Shown: positions 16,861 through 34,333 of the stretch, in pieces
Numbering within the stretch: position 1 is the stretch's first letter
How the letters are laid out: the number at the start of each line of letters is the position of its first letter
Assembly (NCBI GenBank): GCA_946409405.1
Contig: CAMJWL010000012.1
Location: 1 to 37,243 of the forward strand
DNA: 37,243 bases
DNA from: an uncultured Bacteroidales bacterium
Lineage (GTDB): Bacteria; Bacteroidota; Bacteroidia; Bacteroidales; UBA3824
Direction of reading: 5' to 3'
Translations under genes and position numbers: made by a program
The notes under the pieces: model-generated
What the model saw: only the letters and a program-made list of their open reading frames with translations
Database searches by the model: none
What the model was told of the DNA's origin: nothing

Positions 16861-16894
16861 ACCAAAAATTAAAAGAATTACCAAAAATTAAAAG
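16861..16894. repeat. Direct repeat forming part of the terminator
   Basis: ACCAAAAATTAAAAG occurs at 16861-16875 (less its first base shared context) and again at 16880-16894, with AATT between, and a third inverted copy forms the right arm of the following hairpin. Confidence 0.8.
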
Positions 16895-16925
16895 AATAAT
16901 CCTTTTAATTTTTGGTAATTCTTTT
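16871..16925. terminator. Perfect 24-bp hairpin, bidirectional terminator
   Basis: The left arm 16871-16894 and right arm 16902-16925 are perfect complements over 24 bases, around a 7-base loop. Each arm begins or ends with AAAAG/CTTTT, and T-rich sequence follows on both strands. It lies between the convergent PLP-enzyme gene (stop 16834) and FloA-like gene (stop 16963) and can end both transcripts. Confidence 0.88.
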
Positions 16926-16962: not shown

Positions 16963-18429
16963 TCAGTTTTTATCGTCATTATCCGAAATCACATCCGCGT
17001 CGGTATCCTGCACGTGCGGCGTGTCGTCGGCAAGTTCGGTCTGCCGCGACAAATGATGCCCCGTAATGTCCACATTGGCAAGGCTTTGACGCATGAGAGT
17101 ATCCGCCTGTTTGTTTTTGAGGTCGGTGTATTCCTGTACGGAAATGTTGCCGTCCAAAAACGCGGACGCCATCGCCTTCTGTACTTTTTCCTCCGCCAAA
17201 ATCAACTCAGCCTTAGCCGCCTCCACCTGCGCTTTGGCTCGCGCAACTTTGAGCGACGCGCTCACATCGTTGCCAATCTTGATGTCTGATACATCTACCG
17301 ACCTAATTTCATACGCCGAACTCTCGCTGATTGCCGCCGAATTTTCTACGCGGTCGGCTACAAGATATGGGTTTTGGAGGATTTCGGTGTGGCTCTGCGC
17401 AAGACCTATCTGCGTGGCAAGTGCCTCGTTGACACGGGCAAGCACGGTGTCGGCACTTACACCACCAATGATGTTCTTTATCTGAGAACGGAGTGTAACT
17501 TTCACTTTCATAGTCAATTCCACACCGTCGCGAGCAATGCCGCGCACGCCGTCGGTCTCCACTACGATGGGGTTGATGGCAGGTTTGATGGCTTCTACAA
17601 CGTCCATGCCCGCAAGGTCTATCTTGCAGATGTCCTCAAACTCAAATCCGGTCAACTTTGCTTTTTTGGCGGAGATGTACGCCTCGATAGTTTTTTTGAG
17701 GTTGCCGCCAGCAAGGTAGTGCTTTTTGAGACGACCGAGGTCAAGTTCCGCCTTGATGTCGTCGCCAGCATTGTCGGCAATGTTCTTGGCCTTGATGAGG
17801 TCGCCAACGTTGCCGCCAGCAAGGTAAAACTCCGAAAGTTCTGGGATAGAAGTCTTTATCTGGGCGTTCATGGCGTTAATCTGCGCGTGAACGATTGCGC
17901 CGACGTCCACCTTACGGAGGTACAACTGCGCCATATCGTCAAATTTAATATCCTTAACGTTGGCAGCCATGGCTCTAATCATAGTGGCGACCACCACGTC
18001 GAGATCCACCTTAGCAAGATAATACTTCATCAATTCGGGAAGGCTCAGGGTCTTCAAGCCCGCGTTGTAAGCCGTTACCATCAGGTTGATGAGTTTTGCC
18101 TGCGGTATATTCTGCCAACGCATCTTGATAAGCAACAGCCACGAAATGTGCACTTTGGAAAGTTTGGCGTTGAACCACAACTTGATAGGCACCATCGCGA
18201 TGAAAAACCACACTATCAATCCCGCAAAACCAATGGTGATTACAAGAATCAGGAAACCATCCCAAAACGACACGCCCTCACCGTCATCTACGTCGATGAG
18301 AGAATCTTCCATGTCGAGGGATGCGTCTTGGTCGTTATCGTACACCTGCCGCGTGTCTGGCTCGTCGTAGCACGACGCGAGCGACAAGGTGGTGAGCATT
18401 ATCATTATATACAATAAATATTTTTTCAT
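16963..18429 (-). CDS. floA: FloA-like flotillin with lipoprotein signal and expanded repeats
   Basis: A 488-residue SPFH protein. Residues 1-20 look like a lipoprotein signal, ending in LASC (Cys20), then an acidic segment (21-54) and a membrane helix (57-82). The FloA hallmarks follow: PIKLWFNA, YNAGLKTLSLPELMKYYLA, HYLAGGNL at 237-244, CKIDLAGMDVVEAIKPAINPIVVET at 268-291, DGVELTMKVKVTLR, LARVNEALATQIG at 330-342, and an Ala/Glu/Lys coiled coil at 393-421. Bacillus FloA, as I recall, has about 330 residues; the extra length here comes largely from about five copies (120-280) of a 33-38-residue helical unit. FloA proteins organise membrane microdomains. The start at 18429 was chosen for the signal; it follows the long flotillin gene by 16 bases. 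No NfeD partner is present. Confidence 0.9.
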   Translation of the reverse strand: MKKYLLYIMIMLTTLSLASCYDEPDTRQVYDNDQDASLDMEDSLIDVDDGEGVSFWDGFLILVITIGFAGLIVWFFIAMVPIKLWFNAKLSKVHISWLLLIKMRWQNIPQAKLINLMVTAYNAGLKTLSLPELMKYYLAKVDLDVVVATMIRAMAANVKDIKFDDMAQLYLRKVDVGAIVHAQINAMNAQIKTSIPELSEFYLAGGNVGDLIKAKNIADNAGDDIKAELDLGRLKKHYLAGGNLKKTIEAYISAKKAKLTGFEFEDICKIDLAGMDVVEAIKPAINPIVVETDGVRGIARDGVELTMKVKVTLRSQIKNIIGGVSADTVLARVNEALATQIGLAQSHTEILQNPYLVADRVENSAAISESSAYEIRSVDVSDIKIGNDVSASLKVARAKAQVEAAKAELILAEEKVQKAMASAFLDGNISVQEYTDLKNKQADTLMRQSLANVDITGHHLSRQTELADDTPHVQDTDADVISDNDDKN

Positions 18430-18445
18430 TTCATTTGGATTTTTT

Positions 18446-20575
18446 CTATTGTTGTTGCGGGGTTTCGTAGCCCGTGGTGATGTCCTGCGCTGTTTCGGCA
18501 AGGAGATTGGCCTTGTGAAGTTCGTTAAAATTGGGACGGATGCCCTTGTTGTACTGTTCTACCATGGCCTTGCGGATGTTTGCCTCAGCTTCGGCGCGGG
18601 CGGCCTCGGCTTGGATGCGTCTAATTTCTGCATCTATCTGGGCATGACGGAGATTGAGTTCAGCCTTGACGTTCTGCCCTACCACAATGTCGAATATATT
18701 CACATCCAATAGGTCAAAACGGCACACCCTGTTGAGTTCCGATTCGTATATGCGGTCTGTTTTTACCTCCTTTTGCATGTTCTCCTCGTTAACACGGGAA
18801 AGCACCCTATGCGAAATGTCGGGGAGGGTTTTCAAGATTTCATCGAGGTTGGCAGCCGATTCGAGTTCCATTGTAACAGCCTCGTTGATGCGCTTAAACA
18901 AAATATCCTCCCTGTAACCAGAAAAGATAAGGTTGAGTTTGCCGCGCACAGTGGCGTTAATCTTAGGCGTTATCTGTATGCCTTCCTTGGTAACGCACGT
19001 AACGTCCGGCTCAACCCTGATTACACACGGAGTTTTGGCCCACTTTAATGCCATCTCCAACGTCCAATCATCCGATTCGCAGATTTTGGTAGCAAGTTTG
19101 AAATCAAGATTGAGATTGTCCTTGTCGCCAAGTTTGATGGCTTCGATAACATTCATCACGGTGCCAAACTTGATAAAATGCTTTTTGAGGTTTTCGTAAT
19201 TGATGCCACGGTCGAAGTCGGAGGGCTTGAGGTCGTTGATTTCCTCCATGGTCAATTCGCCCTCCTCACGGGCAAGGCGAAGGTTCTCCGCAAAATCCTC
19301 CTTGCATTTTTTCTCCACGTCCTTGGCGTACTTCAACCCCCTGACGTAATCGTACAAATCCGCCTCGGGGCGCGAATATTCCACGAGATGGTCTTTGGAT
19401 AGCGGAGTGCCGTCTTCGGAGGGAAGTTTGTGTTCAAGGGCGTAATGATACGCCTTCACAAACTTCACAACGTCGCAATGTGTGTTGGCGATGTAGTTCA
19501 TCAGTTCGTCGGGCGTGAGGTCAAGTTTGTACTCGTTTGCCTTAATCAACGCCTTCACGAGTTGTGTAACGTCGTTGCCCTGGATGTTTTGGCGGATGAG
19601 GTCGTTTTGGTCGATGCTGATGCCCTTGTTTGACGCCTTGATGATGTTGGATACCAACACGTCAAATTGGTCGTCGGTGAGCGAATACAAGTCCATCATC
19701 GAGAAAGTGATGTTGACACCCGCATTGTGAGCACGTATCATCACGTTGGTAAAACGGCTCACGTCGCGCTTCATATTATAAAGTGTCTTCAATATCTCCA
19801 CCGTTACCTTAAAACTGTCGGAATATTCTATGACGTTTGCCTTGTTGATGGAGAGGCTCTCCGACTCAGACATATAAACGCCTTCGTACTTGGCGCGGAT
19901 GAGCGAATGGATTATCGCCTTGAGACCTTCGTCGTCCACGCTGTTGATGAGGTTTTTTTCGTCTATTTCGATGTCGGCACGTTTGGCGAGGATGTCGAGG
20001 GTTACAAACTGGGCAAAATCCCTGCCCTTGGAGATGAACTCCTTGGCGGTGTCGAAGTCGATGCCGAGGAAGGCGTTTTTCTGATCCACCCACGCCCTCG
20101 CAAATGGCTCGAGTTCGTCGTTCTTTTTGCAAACGCCGTATGCAACAATCATATTGCCCACGTCAAACAGTTCGTCGGCCTCGCGGATAAACCTGAAACA
20201 ACGGAAAAACTTGTCGAAATCCTCTTCGGGAATAGTGTATTTGTCCTCGGCGTTCTTGTGCTTGGCGATGGTAAGGGCGATGTCGAGACCGTTCTCATTG
20301 TCGGAGAGGAACCCACCCGCCGCCGAGTAACACTTCTTGATGCGGTCCAACACCGCGATATAGTCCTCGTCCTTCTGGAAATTGAGCGCAAGCAGTTTGA
20401 AGACGTTCTTGGCAACCTTCTTGCGCCCTATCCCCTTGTTTTTGAGAAACTTGGTGAACGAAACCTTCGCCTTTCGGACGGGACTTTCGCTGCGGCGGTT
20501 GGTAACTATCACTATCACCGTAATAATGATACATACCGCCGCAAACGATACTATTATCCATTCCAAAGCATCCAT
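18446..20575 (-). CDS. Very long flotillin-like SPFH protein with helical repeats
   Basis: A 709-residue protein. One membrane helix lies at 6-25 (WIIVSFAAVCIIITVIVIV), followed by a basic stretch. Residues about 60-515 are helical, with roughly nine units of the FloA-type pattern, clearest as FDVLVSNIIKASNKGISI (305-321) and VTQLVKALIKANEYKLDL (336-353). From about 518 the sequence follows the FloA-like neighbour: VIRVEPDVTCVTKEGIQITPKINATVRG, then ILFKRINEAVTMELESAANLDEIL, RVCRFDLLDVNIFDIVVGQNVKAEL, and a heptad-rich tail RRIQAEAARAEAEANIRKAM at 652-671. The usual YLAGG motifs are lost. The protein is thus a diverged flotillin paralogue, probably co-assembling with its neighbour. It is 4 bases after the SPOR gene and 16 bases before the FloA gene. 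I know no described family with this layout. Confidence 0.85.
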   Translation of the reverse strand: MDALEWIIVSFAAVCIIITVIVIVTNRRSESPVRKAKVSFTKFLKNKGIGRKKVAKNVFKLLALNFQKDEDYIAVLDRIKKCYSAAGGFLSDNENGLDIALTIAKHKNAEDKYTIPEEDFDKFFRCFRFIREADELFDVGNMIVAYGVCKKNDELEPFARAWVDQKNAFLGIDFDTAKEFISKGRDFAQFVTLDILAKRADIEIDEKNLINSVDDEGLKAIIHSLIRAKYEGVYMSESESLSINKANVIEYSDSFKVTVEILKTLYNMKRDVSRFTNVMIRAHNAGVNITFSMMDLYSLTDDQFDVLVSNIIKASNKGISIDQNDLIRQNIQGNDVTQLVKALIKANEYKLDLTPDELMNYIANTHCDVVKFVKAYHYALEHKLPSEDGTPLSKDHLVEYSRPEADLYDYVRGLKYAKDVEKKCKEDFAENLRLAREEGELTMEEINDLKPSDFDRGINYENLKKHFIKFGTVMNVIEAIKLGDKDNLNLDFKLATKICESDDWTLEMALKWAKTPCVIRVEPDVTCVTKEGIQITPKINATVRGKLNLIFSGYREDILFKRINEAVTMELESAANLDEILKTLPDISHRVLSRVNEENMQKEVKTDRIYESELNRVCRFDLLDVNIFDIVVGQNVKAELNLRHAQIDAEIRRIQAEAARAEAEANIRKAMVEQYNKGIRPNFNELHKANLLAETAQDITTGYETPQQQ

Positions 20576-20579
20576 ATTC

Positions 20580-23195
20580 TTAATTCTTTTTTACGCCGTT
20601 AACAAATGTGGCCACGTAGCCATCCTTGAAGCCCTGACCAGCGAGATTTTTCTTGAGAGTCTCCGCCTGTTCGCGGGTGGGGCAGTCGCCCACGGTATAT
20701 ACCGTGTATTTGCCCGACTGAGAGGTATGAACCGTGTAACCCTTTGTCTTCAAGTTGTTGATACGCTTTTGCGTGTCGGGGTTGGGATTTCCTACAAACG
20801 CGCCTATCTGCACACGATATACAGTGCCTTTCACGATGTTATCAATGTTGTCGTCGCCAGTAGGACGACCGATGTTTTGTCCGTTCACAATCTTAACGAC
20901 GTATGCGTCCGTGTAGCCCGACTGTTTGAGCGTGTTGAGATTGGCAGCGGTGATGTTTCTGTCGTTGGAAATACCAGTGTAATAACGGTAAAGGCCGGCA
21001 TTGTTCTGGTCGTAGTAGAGTTCGTTGACATTGAACGTACCCATGCCCTGCAATGTGGGCAGCGCGGCTATCTGCACGGCGTAAACCGTGGAGCCAAGCA
21101 TCGAGAGCGGCAATGCATCGCCGGTGCGCTTTACGCTGTTGTCAACAACGATGGGGGTGTTGCCGCCAAGACCGGCGTTGAGGGTTTTGAGTTCCTTCTG
21201 CACGTTGGCCTGGTAGTTGGTAGTTTTTTCGGCAACCTTGCGGGCGGCGGTGAGATCCACCTTCTTGCCGTTGGTAAATGCCACTACCTGAGCGTTTTTG
21301 TAACCCTCATTCTTGGCGAGCGAAGATGCGGCGAGGGCTGCGTCGTAGGTCTGGAACGTGCCTATATAATAGCGCATCGGGGTAATGCCTTTGAGGTTTT
21401 GCGCGAGGAAGTTGGATATTGTGGGGAAGTCAACCGGCTCCACCATCTCCTTGTAAATGCCCGCCTCAACGCTAAACACCGTGCCTTGCGGGAATGTGTA
21501 GGGCTTCATGCGTTGGTCGTCGCGGGTGTAATTGAACGTGCCGATAACAGCCGCGTTGGACGATGCCACGTCGGGCGTATGGGTTTTGGAGGCTGTGTTT
21601 TTGGCGGGCGTTGCAGTGGTGGTGCTAGAAGCCTTGCCCGTAGAACCGGAAGTAGTGTTGGTCTTGCTGCCAGTGGTAGTATTGGTGGTCTTGCTGCCGG
21701 TGGCTGGATTGGTCTTAGTGCCAGTGGTCTTGTTGTTGCCAGCAACGTCCACTACTTGGTTGGCGGGTTTGGTGTCTTTGGGAGTAGTGTTGGTGGCGGG
21801 TTTTGCGTCCGTCTCGCCCGATTCGTCCATCATAAAGTCCATTGCAATGTCGTTATGACGCTCCACGGCAGCGGATACAAGCGACCTGCGCTCGCGTTCG
21901 GGCTTTTCGTCAAGGTAAAGCGCAATGGCGTTTTCCATGTATTGAAGTGCTTGGAGTTTTGCCTCGTTGCCTTCCGACAGAAGGGTGTATTTCTCCACAT
22001 TGCTCAATTGTTTTGCAGCCATCTCCTCGTAGGTCTTAGACATGTTGTAGAGGTCTTCGGCGTTGCGCTCCCAACGCTCGCCAAGCGCGCTCTTGTCCAT
22101 GTACGTGCCTACGTTGTTCTTTTGGATGCGGAAGGCGGGGATGTACTTCTTGTATATTTCATAGAGTACGTTGTTGTTGGCAGTGGCGAGAGTAATGGCC
22201 CTCAAGAGGTTGCTGCACTCGCTGAGTTCGCTCTCCTGCGCCATCTGCTCGTAATACTCGTGTACCGCCTTGTTTTCTACGTTGGAATACACGCGGAATG
22301 TGTCTGCCTCGCTGCCCTTCTCTACCGCCGTGGCGTAATAATTGGCTATCGCAGCCTCATCGAGCGAAATTTTGTCTATCTTCTGACGGTCTGCGTCGGT
22401 GAGTCCGAGTTTGGGAGCGAGTTCGTGGTAACGCAACTTATAGAGGTTGGAGTCCTTGTCGAAGTCGTAATGCTCGAAGGCTACGAGTTTCGGGATGTCC
22501 ACTTTCTTGGTGGTGTCTGGCGCAAACTGCTTGTGTATGTCGATGTACTGAGTGTAGTCGATCTTGGGGTCGCCCTTGCAGACTGCGAGCGCAAGTTCCT
22601 GATAATGAACAGCGTTCACAAGGTTGGTGTAGATAGCGCGGTTGGCCTCCAAGGTGTTTTCGGAGGTGATGTGCGCCTTGATGGAGTCGGCAGTGTGGTA
22701 GAGTTGGTAGGCGCGTTCCGACATGCTGCGGGCGGTGCGGAGACTCATCTGCGAGGTGTCCTTGCTGAGTTGCATTATCTTGTCGAAATACACGGGACGG
22801 TACAGGGACGCCGCTTTTTCAAATGTTTTGAGGGCGGTCAACTCCTGCGAGGCGGCTTTTGCGGCGAGTTTTGCCGACTGTTTCTGGATTTTTGCCGACT
22901 GACCCGAAATAATTTTCAGGTCGTCAGACTGTTTTTGGATGGCGACGGCAAGCACGGAGGCCTCTTCCGCCTTGGTGCGGTATTTCTCCGCCTTGTCGAG
23001 TTTGGAGAGTTCCTTCTCGTTAAACATCTCGCGGTAATACCCCTGTTTACAGAGCCTGAACCCGTCGTCGTCCGAGTGGACTATCTGTATATTACTGATA
23101 TTGAGTGCGTTGTAATTGTTTACTTCCTCCGGCATAAATCCCGCAGCAAGCAAAGCCGGGGCAGACAATGCCAATATTATTTGCAAAGTTTTCAT
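20580..23195 (-). CDS. Secreted helical protein with three SPOR-like repeats
   Basis: An 871-residue protein with signal MKTLQIILALSAPALLAAG. Residues about 60-455 are helical, with coiled-coil character at 65-130 (Lys/Ala/Gln/Ser-rich) and TPR-like spacing later. A low-complexity linker (460-545) is rich in Thr, Ser, Lys, Gly and Asn. Three SPOR-like repeats follow: about 572-643 (TVFSVEAGIYKE, MRYYIGTFQTYDAA), 702-772 (TVYAVQIAALP, LYRYYTGISND) and 790-867 (TVYRVQIGAFVGN, YTVYTVGDCPTREQAETLKK). SPOR domains bind peptidoglycan lacking stem peptides, as found at division sites. The protein probably lies in the periplasm or on the outer-membrane inner face. It heads the operon with the two flotillin genes; a -7 box TACATTTG is 30 bases upstream. 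Confidence 0.88.
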   Translation of the reverse strand: MKTLQIILALSAPALLAAGFMPEEVNNYNALNISNIQIVHSDDDGFRLCKQGYYREMFNEKELSKLDKAEKYRTKAEEASVLAVAIQKQSDDLKIISGQSAKIQKQSAKLAAKAASQELTALKTFEKAASLYRPVYFDKIMQLSKDTSQMSLRTARSMSERAYQLYHTADSIKAHITSENTLEANRAIYTNLVNAVHYQELALAVCKGDPKIDYTQYIDIHKQFAPDTTKKVDIPKLVAFEHYDFDKDSNLYKLRYHELAPKLGLTDADRQKIDKISLDEAAIANYYATAVEKGSEADTFRVYSNVENKAVHEYYEQMAQESELSECSNLLRAITLATANNNVLYEIYKKYIPAFRIQKNNVGTYMDKSALGERWERNAEDLYNMSKTYEEMAAKQLSNVEKYTLLSEGNEAKLQALQYMENAIALYLDEKPERERRSLVSAAVERHNDIAMDFMMDESGETDAKPATNTTPKDTKPANQVVDVAGNNKTTGTKTNPATGSKTTNTTTGSKTNTTSGSTGKASSTTTATPAKNTASKTHTPDVASSNAAVIGTFNYTRDDQRMKPYTFPQGTVFSVEAGIYKEMVEPVDFPTISNFLAQNLKGITPMRYYIGTFQTYDAALAASSLAKNEGYKNAQVVAFTNGKKVDLTAARKVAEKTTNYQANVQKELKTLNAGLGGNTPIVVDNSVKRTGDALPLSMLGSTVYAVQIAALPTLQGMGTFNVNELYYDQNNAGLYRYYTGISNDRNITAANLNTLKQSGYTDAYVVKIVNGQNIGRPTGDDNIDNIVKGTVYRVQIGAFVGNPNPDTQKRINNLKTKGYTVHTSQSGKYTVYTVGDCPTREQAETLKKNLAGQGFKDGYVATFVNGVKKN

Positions 23196-23224: not shown

Positions 23225-23232
23225 CAAATGTA
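23225..23232 (-). promoter_or_regulatory. -7 element TACATTTG of the SPOR/flotillin operon
   Basis: An exact TAnnTTTG match on the minus strand, 30-37 bases before the SPOR gene ATG. A -33 at consensus spacing is not clear in the T-rich upstream stretch. No other -7 box is apparent in the short gaps between the three genes of the operon. Confidence 0.55.
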
Positions 23233-31908: not shown

Positions 31909-32943
31909 TTATTTGTTGTTATATACGTCGCGGATTTCCTTGATGCGGTCGCCGTTTTTGTAAGCCACCACAAACGCGCCGTCCACGCCCTTGCCACGCA
32001 GCGTGATGGCTGTTTTTTTGGCCTCCTCGTAAGTCGTGTAATACCCCACGGTGTAACGGTAGATGCCATTCTGCACCTCGTTGTTGATGATGTCGTCGGT
32101 GGGGCAAATCTGACGGAGTTTTGCGATGGAGAGCGGGATTGCGTCGGCGGCTATCTGCACCTTGTAGATGATGCGGTCGGTGGTGTTGTTGCCCTGCACA
32201 AAACTGAATCCCTCGTCGTCCATAGTGTCGGCGTTGTCGCTCGGCTGCGACGTTTCTGCCAATCCGTCCGACTCATCAGCCACGTTTGCATTGCTGCCGT
32301 CATTGTTGCTGACCACTTCCACCGATGGAGTGTCGGGCTTTTCGTTGAAAGCGAGGAGCAGTTTGTACGCCTCTATCTGGTAGCGAATGGCCCTGAGTTG
32401 GTTGGCATTGGCGTCCTGCTTAATCTTGGCGAGTGCCTTCTGGTCTACTTTTTTGCCTGTGGGAGCGGCTTTGAGAGCCTTGTCGGCCTTCGCCCAGGTG
32501 TCGGCGGCAAAGGTAGTAAGATCGCTGATGTCGCCCTGGATGTCGCTGGCACCGATGCTTGCAAGTTCCTTGATGTTGGCGGCAAAAATGCCATATAACG
32601 TGGCGTATCCCTTCTCATATACATTGTAAGCGTTCACCTGCTGCGTATAGATGGGCTGCTCTAAGGCTGCCGCCTCCTTGTTTTTCTTCTTGGCTTCGCC
32701 CTTGGACGCCGACTTGGCTTCAGCGCGGAGTTTGTCGGCCTGCGCCTGTTTGGTGGCGGCTTGTCCGAGTTGCACCTTCGCCCTCTCTATCTGCTGCAAC
32801 GCCTGGTTCATTTCAGATGCGTCGGAGGCAGAAAGTTGCTCCGAAATCTGGTCCAACATCGCTTCGTCAAGCTCCTGCGCGTTTGCCGAGGCAACAAAGA
32901 GAAGCGACGCCGCTATCGTCATGATAAAAATAATCTTTCTCAT
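31909..32943 (-). CDS. Secreted helical protein with one C-terminal SPOR-like repeat
   Basis: A 344-residue protein. The signal MRKIIFIMTIAASLLFVASANA ends before QELDEAMLDQ. Residues 25-190 are helical, with a Lys/Ala-rich coiled coil (about 60-100). A Ser/Asp/Asn-rich acidic linker is at about 205-245, and a SPOR-like repeat is at about 256-335 (RIIYKVQIAADAIP, IYRYTVGYYTTYEEAKKTA, VDGAFVVAYKNGDRI). The plan mirrors the 871-residue triple-SPOR protein at 20580-23195, with one repeat instead of three, so the two are probably paralogues. It is likely periplasmic and peptidoglycan-binding. It heads the group with folP and the small barrel protein, from the promoter at 32985-33015. Confidence 0.85.
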   Translation of the reverse strand: MRKIIFIMTIAASLLFVASANAQELDEAMLDQISEQLSASDASEMNQALQQIERAKVQLGQAATKQAQADKLRAEAKSASKGEAKKKNKEAAALEQPIYTQQVNAYNVYEKGYATLYGIFAANIKELASIGASDIQGDISDLTTFAADTWAKADKALKAAPTGKKVDQKALAKIKQDANANQLRAIRYQIEAYKLLLAFNEKPDTPSVEVVSNNDGSNANVADESDGLAETSQPSDNADTMDDEGFSFVQGNNTTDRIIYKVQIAADAIPLSIAKLRQICPTDDIINNEVQNGIYRYTVGYYTTYEEAKKTAITLRGKGVDGAFVVAYKNGDRIKEIRDVYNNK

Positions 32944-32984
32944 AATCGTTTTTCCTTTTTTTTCTGTTATTGTCAATTAGTCGG

Positions 32985-33145: not shown

Positions 33146-34285
33146 TTATGCACCTGGTGCCGGCGGGGGCGGAGGCGTTGCGCCGCCAAAGAGACCGGCG
33201 AGTTCGGGAACGGTGTTTGCCGCAGCCCAATTTGCCATGCCCTGCTTCCACACCTGCGTGTCGCCTGTCATCTGTCCCTGTGCCACCATCTGCTGCAACA
33301 TCTGAATCGGGAAGGGACCCATCTGCTGACCGTTGACAAACACATGGTACTGCGACATCATCGGCGGGGGTGTTGTCTGTCCGTAGCCCTGTGCATAGCC
33401 GCCTTGATTCATCATCTGCTGGTTCATCATCTGCTGCTGGTTCATCATGTTGTTCATCATCATCATGCCCATCATGCCTTCCATGCCGCCGCCACCGTTG
33501 CCGCCGTTGGCTGCTGCGGTCTTCATAGCGTCAGCCATGGACATCTGCTGGTACCTGTTCATGTCGCCGAGCATGTTCATGCCAGTGCCTTCGTCGAGTT
33601 TCTTCTGCAACTCTTCGGGCAGCGAGATGCTGTTGATGAGGAATTGAGTGAACTGCAAGCCGTACTCGCTGGTGTTGAGGTTCTTCATGCAAATCTCGCC
33701 GAGAGTCCTGTAATTGGCGGCGAGGTCGAGAAGCGACACCTTGCTCTCACCAATGGCGGTGATGAGGTTGTTGATGATAAGGCTGCGGAGTTCTTCGGCA
33801 ATCTCGCCTACGCGGAAATTGCTCTTGGTGCCAGAAACCTTCTGCACAAACAATCCCGGATCAACCACCCTGAACGAGTATGTGCCAAAAGCGCGGAGGC
33901 TCACACGTCCAAAGTCCTGGTCGCGCACGTAGAACACATTGGGTGTGCCCCACTTCTGCGCCGTAAAGGTCTTGGTGTTCACAAAGTACACCTCGCATTT
34001 GAACGGAGAATCAAGGCCATACTTCCAACTTTTCAGTTTGGTAAGCACGGGAATGTTGTTGGTGGTGAGTTCGTAACGACCCGGCTGAAAAATATCGCCG
34101 AGTTCTCCCTCGTTAACAAATACCGCGGCCTGCGACTCCCTCACGGTGAGTTGTGCGCCATTTTTGATTGCGTTGCCACGGCAATCGTACTGGTGGAGAA
34201 TAGTGTCTTGGCTCTGATCCTGCCACTCGATGACGTTAATGAGTTCGCCTTTGACGAAATCAACTATTGATCCAATAATACCCAT
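33146..34285 (-). CDS. SPFH-domain protein with C-terminal GYF_2 domain
   Basis: A 379-residue protein without a membrane helix. The N-terminus MGIIGSIVDFVKGELINVIE and the following SPFH domain (about 20-230: AVFVNEGELGDIFQPGRYEL, FRVGEIAEELRSLIINNL, YGLQFTQFLINSISLPEEL) match the YdjI-type SPFH proteins of Bacillus and relatives. Residues 255-305 are low-complexity, rich in Met, Asn, Gln and Gly. A GYF_2-like domain is at about 312-360 (YHVFVNGQQMGPFPIQMLQQMV, then WKQGMANW), usually a peptide-binding module. It ends with a Pro-rich tail. SPFH proteins of this type attach to membranes as scaffolds. The ATG at 34285 is preferred over the in-frame TTG two codons upstream. It has its own promoter and terminator and lies upstream of a SPOR gene on the same strand. 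Confidence 0.9.
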   Translation of the reverse strand: MGIIGSIVDFVKGELINVIEWQDQSQDTILHQYDCRGNAIKNGAQLTVRESQAAVFVNEGELGDIFQPGRYELTTNNIPVLTKLKSWKYGLDSPFKCEVYFVNTKTFTAQKWGTPNVFYVRDQDFGRVSLRAFGTYSFRVVDPGLFVQKVSGTKSNFRVGEIAEELRSLIINNLITAIGESKVSLLDLAANYRTLGEICMKNLNTSEYGLQFTQFLINSISLPEELQKKLDEGTGMNMLGDMNRYQQMSMADAMKTAAANGGNGGGGMEGMMGMMMMNNMMNQQQMMNQQMMNQGGYAQGYGQTTPPPMMSQYHVFVNGQQMGPFPIQMLQQMVAQGQMTGDTQVWKQGMANWAAANTVPELAGLFGGATPPPPPAPGA

Positions 34286-34333
34286 AGTCAATAAAGGTTT
34301 AGAATTATGATATTGTTGTTATTATTTACGGTG

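Follow-up and report, generated by a model that had tools for sequence, protein, structure and literature searches.

A three-gene SPOR and flotillin operon without NfeD in a Bacteroidales genus: a candidate flotillin scaffold with a wall-binding partner

The flotillins of the SPFH5 group (YqfA or FloA) are reported to occur in operons with NfeD, and the origin of SPFH4 by loss of NfeD, and of HflK/HflC by a later duplication, has been offered as possible (PMC2636767). In FloA of Staphylococcus aureus, the region following the transmembrane helix (TM) is PHB subdomain 1 (PHB-S1), which is described as having six helices and recognizes microdomain lipid, staphyloxanthin binding being lost in variants without helices 1 and 2; the OB domain of NfeD fits against the FloA coil in 8 Å maps, and this same coil drives multimerization, a deletion within it blocking multimers (PMC11222466). 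We describe here a locus from an uncultured Bacteroidales bacterium (UBA3824; GenBank assembly GCA_946409405.1), found in a stretch of 37,243 nucleotides (contig CAMJWL010000012.1, positions 1 to 37,243) that was analyzed as a whole and will be referred to as “the window.” Three minus-strand genes lie in it head to tail, separated by 4 and 16 bases: one for a secreted protein with three SPOR units (the SPOR gene), one for a 709-residue protein of the FloA family (the giant), and one for a lipoprotein-type FloA paralogue, to which we will refer as FloL. This layout had been proposed in a first-pass annotation of the sequence, and its coordinates and gaps were re-derived and are correct. We favor, with a confidence slightly short of even, the reading that the operon encodes an NfeD-independent two-subunit flotillin scaffold together with a periplasmic wall-binding partner.

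Conservation of the operon and absence of NfeD

Gene order in relatives, set beforehand as one of the checks able to refute a coupling between these genes, is retained across the genus. The family of the window's genome consists here of a single genus of 18 genomes, all of which carry the giant and the SPOR gene (18/18); FloL is present in 17/18, being unlisted only for a genome that is 61% complete (G011). The three genes lie in the same order on a single contig in 14/18 genomes, and in the remaining four (G003, G011, G012, and G015) the operon is interrupted at contig ends, the pieces of G015 coming from two contigs. One of these (L055) holds a complete giant and the other (L056) the end of a different giant followed by FloL, and this genome may hold two copies or two strains. 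The SPOR-giant gap spans 2–37 bases (17 genus loci) and the giant-FloL gap up to 108 bases (15 loci, from open reading frame coordinates with unrefined starts). A scan of named genomes with the giant alignment yielded 21 loci, 17 of them from uncultured Bacteroidales that resemble the window's genus by identity (44–77%) and are labelled sheep, goat, yak, red deer, RUG (rumen), and horse faeces, with one labelled UBA3824; the other 4/21 belong to more distant records.

At 42 of 45 canonical FloA loci, hand-picked among the matches listed, the gene immediately upstream of FloA is NfeD. It was not found in the window's genome (88% complete) nor, by profile, in the fetched operon loci of the genus. 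Elsewhere in the genus, NfeD is present somewhere in 6/18 genomes (5/8 of the near-complete ones), adjoining a Band_7 gene away from the operon at the three loci inspected (L211, L213, and L215), and none was shown in G002 (99% complete), G001, and G016. An assembly gap at the locus was considered as a source of this absence and rejected, the genes being on one contig in those 14 genomes with no match to the NfeD profile there. Because NfeD sits between the SPOR gene and FloA in other Bacteroidales, its absence is most likely a secondary loss, and the genus most likely lost both NfeD and canonical FloA and retained the paralogue pair. The earlier description of the operon as one “without NfeD” therefore stands for the locus and for what was found in the window's genome, corrected to a likely secondary loss.

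Properties of the three proteins

FloL and the giant are members of the Pfam FloA family (PF12127; 273 and 110.6 bits, respectively, with a cut-off of 34 bits), and both fall below the cut-off of 393 bits of the NCBIfam FloA equivalog NF010186 (270 and 108 bits). The longest open reading frame of the third gene opens at TTG 18501 (512 aa); ATG 18429 was taken as the start of FloL because the N-terminus that it yields (MKKYLLYIM...SLASC) is common to relatives. A lipobox-type start, that is, a signal peptide ending in Cys, was recognized in 27/29 FloL proteins and in 0/47 canonical FloA, by a loose rule of our own that was made after seeing the sequences and also admits Glu ahead of the Cys, as in 3 of these 27. 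Cys20 is presumably acylated, FloL being a putative lipoprotein. The linker comprises 33–45 aa, with a median of 11 acidic and 1 basic residues, and the 40 residues after the TM include 6 basic and 0 acidic ones (27 proteins measured in each case); as an acidic linker, a TM, and then a basic stretch follow the lipobox Cys, a periplasmic tail and a cytosolic SPFH part are expected for FloL.

A profile built for a helical repeat of 31 residues, with canonical FloA as its seed, recognizes two copies in canonical FloA and five in FloL, numbers that are not independent findings, as the classes were themselves defined by repeat number and length (canonical, 2 repeats and <350 aa; FloL, 5 repeats and 390–515 aa). 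When the class rule is set aside, 51/52 FloA-tagged proteins under 366 aa have two repeats, the other one being a cut piece, and 29/35 of those at 390–515 aa have five, the remaining six being the upstream proteins of L093 and L102 together with L098, L106, L118, and L121; a false FloA-tagged match (L173, 317 aa) was dropped. In our own reading, the repeat region of FloL and FloA equates to the PHB-S1 region of the S. aureus protein.

Coil length, lipobox, and tree make no use of the repeats. The coil between the SPFH domain and the C-terminal helix measures 58 residues in 47/47 canonical FloA and 33 in 29/29 FloL, and a tree built from the SPFH part onward places FloL in one clade (support 100/99), apart from canonical FloA and adjoining other non-canonical FloA proteins (99/96). 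Eight “other” proteins, as well as short rows, were excluded from this tree; the four class labels need 6 changes on it, not 3, with 2 for the FloL label solely because a FloL fragment (L059) carried the label “odd.” Many long branches appear among the giants, whose origin is therefore not settled by it. An origin of FloL in this genus was rejected, since 13 of the 29 FloL proteins come from 8 other families (the other 16 from the genus) and all fall in one clade. What had been called a FloA-like flotillin thus belongs to the FloA family by Pfam, as a five-repeat paralogue of lipoprotein type and not as an ordinary FloA.

The giant comprises one N-terminal hydrophobic helix, an alpha-solenoid, an SPFH domain, and a shortened coil, which measures 37 residues in 21/24 giants and 51 in 3, two more giants being cut off. 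Four solenoid units are recognized as FloA PHB-S1-type repeats (residues 219–248, 273–301, 305–335, and 337–364), and the protein is, as modeled, mostly alpha-solenoid. That it might not be an SPFH protein, its Band_7 match reaching E 0.12 only, was rejected by the AlphaFold2 model and by structural alignments of its SPFH part to HflK/C and prohibitin chains, among others; the previously proposed diverged SPFH protein hence holds by fold in the model, and its family is FloA by Pfam. Unlinked giant-like FloA solenoids of 655–721 aa were also observed in families f45, f66, and f70 (L112, L114, L115, and L117), with similar proteins at L113 and L116 and cut ones at L118 and L119. A genome from another order of the class encodes a 799-aa FloA-family protein with six repeats (L210:708-3107, plus strand), and for this reason repeat expansion in FloA may have occurred more than once.

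The SPOR protein (871 aa) shows an N-terminal signal-peptide-like helix, a helical N-domain, a linker, and the three SPOR units, with long-helix bundles modeled at residues 54–207 and 252–427 and a low-confidence linker at 436–551. An hhalign comparison finds its N-domain also in SPOR proteins encoded at FloA loci in other families of Bacteroidales, at 16–22% identity to that of the window. Unit 3 exceeds the cut-off of Pfam SPOR (PF05036, 21 bits) and has a SPOR fold, resembling solved SPOR domains in sequence (1x60, 2.1e-4) and in fold; unit 1 has no Pfam match and unit 2 reaches 15.9 bits, both short of the cut-off. Among relatives, single units exceed it in 3/8 cases (2/5 for unit 1 and 1/3 for unit 2). 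Profile-to-profile comparisons of the three pairs of units gave E-values of 1.3e-6, 1.2e-8, and 4.1e-6, and the model contains strand-helix units at all three places, so that the three SPOR-like repeats of the first-pass annotation are borne out, units 1 and 2 by profile comparison and model; SPOR and SPFH, the predicted folds named beforehand as a check, are both present. With the glycan-contacting Gln and Arg of RlpA as reference positions (PMC6895207), Gln is found by eye in units 2 and 3 and Arg in units 1 and 2. Glycan binding is plausible from these residues, and not certain for every unit, because only unit 2 has both.

Linkage in other families and elements flanking the operon

Outside the genus, the order SPOR-NfeD-FloA with a match to the N-domain is found at seven loci (L167, L198, L199, L201, L202, L205, and L206), SPOR-NfeD-FloA-giant at two (L107 and L109), SPOR-NfeD-FloA-giant-FloL at one (L090), and SPOR-giant-FloL/FloA without NfeD at L093, L102, and L105, as well as at L104, where the last gene is cut. 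A SPOR gene lies upstream in the same run at 14/19 fetched non-genus loci with FloL or a giant, in 8 families, if the 665-aa protein of L104 is taken as a giant and one unrelated gene between is admitted at L103. None was found at 16 further fetched loci whose FloA paralogues are odd, unlinked, or partial (L094, L095, L106, and L112-L124).

The SPOR N-domain profile matches 44/295 genomes of the order, 22 of them above 150 bits, and in 18 of these 22 the next gene in the run is NfeD or one of the FloA family (G220, G073, and G033 are unlinked, and G027 ends at a contig edge). This last count is biased, as the 22 include 11 that are either the window itself or profile seeds chosen at FloA loci; linkage among unseeded genomes is 7/11 (G008, G144, G100, G179, G072, G034, and G271). 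A SPOR gene is next upstream at 7/45 canonical FloA loci vs. 2/322 other genes there (Fisher p 8e-6). Given the linked loci in several families and this control, a SPOR gene beside FloA is, judging from gene order, a recurrent arrangement in Bacteroidales, and the linkage stands on the unseeded genomes and the canonical-locus control. The SPOR-flotillin coupling suggested for the window is in this sense conserved in its genus and recurs in other families of the order. SPOR proteins of 1,895–2,240 aa carry the same N-domain family in mid-protein (L197, L198, L199, L203, L204, L205, and L207), those of L198, L199, and L205 being encoded directly upstream of NfeD-FloA; another locus (L169:858-5186, plus strand) has, directly before NfeD and FloA, a gene for a protein of 1,442 aa that contains five SPOR units.

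The features of the operon are collected in Table 1. The TAnnTTTG-type motif upstream of it occurs 28 times in the window vs. 21.6 expected by chance, and no matching TTTG was found upstream of the candidate at the usual spacing. Downstream, the convergent neighbor behind the 20-pair stem is a PALP-family gene. A second SPFH protein (33149-34291, minus strand; Band_7_1 and GYF_2, 381 aa) is also encoded in the window, next to a 355-aa protein (31912-32976, minus strand) with one SPOR-like unit just below the Pfam cut-off and a weak match to the SPOR N-domain profile (3.1e-5).

Table 1. Coordinates of the operon and its features in the window.
Feature	Position	Strand	Evidence
SPOR gene	20580..23195	-	871 aa; homologues in 18/18 genus genomes
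N-terminal helical domain of SPOR protein (residues 44-430)	21906..23066	-	hhalign prob 99.8, E 1.5e-29, 369 columns; order-wide search
SPOR unit 1 (residues 571-647)	21255..21485	-	model strands 572-581, 607-614, 636-641
SPOR unit 2 (residues 702-776)	20868..21092	-	15.9 bits with Pfam SPOR; model
SPOR unit 3 (residues 790-871)	20583..20828	-	Pfam SPOR 2.2e-12
Giant FloA-family protein	18446..20575	-	709 aa; Pfam FloA 1.1e-31; AlphaFold2 pLDDT 79.6, pTM 0.49
Alpha-solenoid of giant (residues ~32-514)	19034..20482	-	repeat profile, AlphaFold2
SPFH domain of giant (residues ~515-636)	18668..19033	-	SPFH fold in AlphaFold2 model
FloL, lipoprotein-type FloA paralogue	16963..18429	-	488 aa; Pfam FloA 3.9e-81; FloL clade support 100/99
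Putative signal peptide of FloL, lipobox-like SLAS-C, Cys20	18370..18429	-	lipobox pattern, 27/29 FloL
Five tandem PHB-S1-type helical repeats of FloL (residues 111-276)	17602..18099	-	repeat profile
Shortened coiled coil of FloL, 33 residues	17176..17274	-	vs. 58 in canonical FloA
TAnnTTTG-type motif, weak candidate promoter	23225..23232	-	~30 bases upstream of SPOR start
20-pair stem, terminator-like on both strands	16875..16921		between FloL and convergent PALP-family gene

Proposed mechanism, alternatives, and known systems

Starting from what was read in sequences or models (gene order and its conservation, the signal-peptide/lipobox pattern, repeat numbers, coil shortening, the absence of NfeD at the locus, and the SPFH and SPOR folds), we infer the acylation, topology, co-assembly, glycan binding, periplasm-membrane contact, and site of action of the following scheme. 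On the inner membrane, at its cytoplasmic face, FloL and the giant would assemble together, just as paired SPFH subunits such as HflK/HflC assemble with each other; their being paired SPFH paralogues, encoded together and with coils of similar length (33 and 37 residues), suggests such a mixed assembly. FloL would contribute a longer PHB-S1 arm for lipid recognition and a periplasmic tail consisting of an acylated Cys20 and ~39 residues, most of them acidic or neutral; the giant would supply an alpha-solenoid in the cytosol, perhaps directed at clients. The secreted protein would bind peptide-stripped glycan via its SPOR units, which would act as an address, and its helical N-domain would meet the FloL tail, thereby tying the membrane scaffold to sites of wall remodeling or splitting. 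In this way the earlier idea of a periplasm-to-membrane system acquires a possible physical basis in the FloL tail, which is acidic and presumably acylated, the interaction itself being conjectural still. Rather doubtful is the fullest version of the scheme, a trans-envelope system in which a lipid-anchored flotillin with an acylated acidic periplasmic tail and a solenoid flotillin would form a mixed cage, placed by the triple-SPOR protein at stripped peptidoglycan, as a counterpart of HflK/HflC that would have arisen from FloA, without NfeD, inside the Bacteroidales.

Several observations weigh against the scaffold with an encoded wall-binding partner. Adjacency is no proof of contact. The five near-complete genus genomes that keep NfeD elsewhere could use it in trans; the two FloL proteins without a lipobox are both those of family f104; and the unlinked giants of f45, f66, and f70 have no N-terminal TM by simple hydropathy. 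The short coil could mean weaker assembly instead of a new partner, because the S. aureus FloA coil also drives multimerization (PMC11222466). By eye, Glu replaces the RlpA glycan-contacting Gln in unit 1 and the Arg is missing from unit 3. Regarding linkage, a SPOR gene is lacking at 5/19 non-genus loci with FloL or a giant (L091, L092, L097, L108, and L110), SPOR is not next upstream at 38/45 canonical loci, the SPOR proteins found at canonical loci have mostly other architectures where the N-domain was compared, and SPOR homologues without a nearby FloA occur at L191, L194, and L196.

Some of these points suit mere co-regulation, to which we give a minor though real share: FloL and the giant would do the usual flotillin job (as a microdomain scaffold or as a holder of unfolded membrane proteins), with the SPOR protein acting separately as a wall protein switched on under the same conditions, without contact. 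The five loci lacking a SPOR gene and the varied architectures of SPOR proteins upstream of NfeD-FloA elsewhere (e.g., TPR-PD40-SPOR) fit such an arrangement; however, the same SPOR N-domain family recurs beside FloA-family or NfeD genes in the unseeded genomes, and the acidic N-terminal tail that FloL has acquired is conserved. It is unlikely that FloL and the giant form an HflK/HflC-like cage controlling FtsH or another membrane protease, with the SPOR gene incidental. Paired SPFH paralogues without NfeD, the structural alignment of the giant to HflK/C and prohibitin chains, and the possible route via NfeD loss and duplication mentioned above would agree with it (PMC2636767), but no protease gene or family was found among the window genes scanned, and the SPOR linkage is left unexplained. 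The SPFH part of HflK/C is periplasmic, unlike the cytosolic one expected for FloL and the giant. Chance neighbors, kept in order through slow rearrangement alone, are very improbable: much of the evidence does come from one genus, but linkage is seen again in families with SPOR N-domains 16–22% identical to that of the window, and its frequency at canonical loci exceeds the internal control.

The favored reading, a two-subunit scaffold with its wall-binding partner, bears on how bacterial flotillins choose their place and what they do without NfeD, and offers an answer open to testing, namely a wall-binding partner whose gene adjoins theirs. A natural experiment is provided by lineages that have only NfeD-FloA, one that has all three flotillins consecutively, and one that has only the NfeD-free pair; a lipoprotein-like flotillin, if true, would be a new topology for the family. 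In an open-access collection that lacks most subscription papers, no apparent report was found of a flotillin with an encoded wall-binding partner or of a lipoprotein-like flotillin; no paper found there joins NfeD and SPOR, and the same applies to FloA, NfeD, and flotillin taken together with Bacteroid- and to flotillin and SPFH gene clusters in Bacteroidetes. Papers holding both flotillin and SPOR domain, one of which holds lipobox as well, appear to concern Gram-positive surface proteins and a Bacillus pellicle proteome. Flotillins are known; we know of no description of this architecture and partner.

Among known systems, FloA (YqfA, SPFH5) with NfeD, as in S. aureus and B. subtilis, shares with the operon the Pfam family, the N-terminal TM, the helical PHB-S1, the SPFH domain, the coil, and the conserved C-terminal helix. 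FloL differs by its lipoprotein-type signal peptide, acidic linker, five repeats instead of two, and coil of 33 residues instead of 58; the giant, by being mostly solenoid, with four recognized repeats in a longer solenoid and a 37-residue coil; and the operon, by the lack of NfeD at the locus and the SPOR gene upstream. The QmcA-YbbJ type (a Band_7 and NfeD pair) has the SPFH fold in common and differs in keeping NfeD, and such a pair exists separately in at least three genomes of the genus. HflK/HflC and other paired SPFH proteins are alike in being two adjacent, diverged SPFH paralogues without NfeD, whereas the present pair is of the FloA family (PF12127) and not SPFH3, has solenoid and repeat expansions, and a link to FtsH is not among the findings here; by analogy, the operon would parallel the NfeD-loss and duplication route, starting from FloA. 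Finally, CwlC, RlpA, and DedD display a C-terminal SPOR fold like that of the window protein, which differs from them in having three SPOR units behind a long helical N-domain and in being encoded with flotillins.

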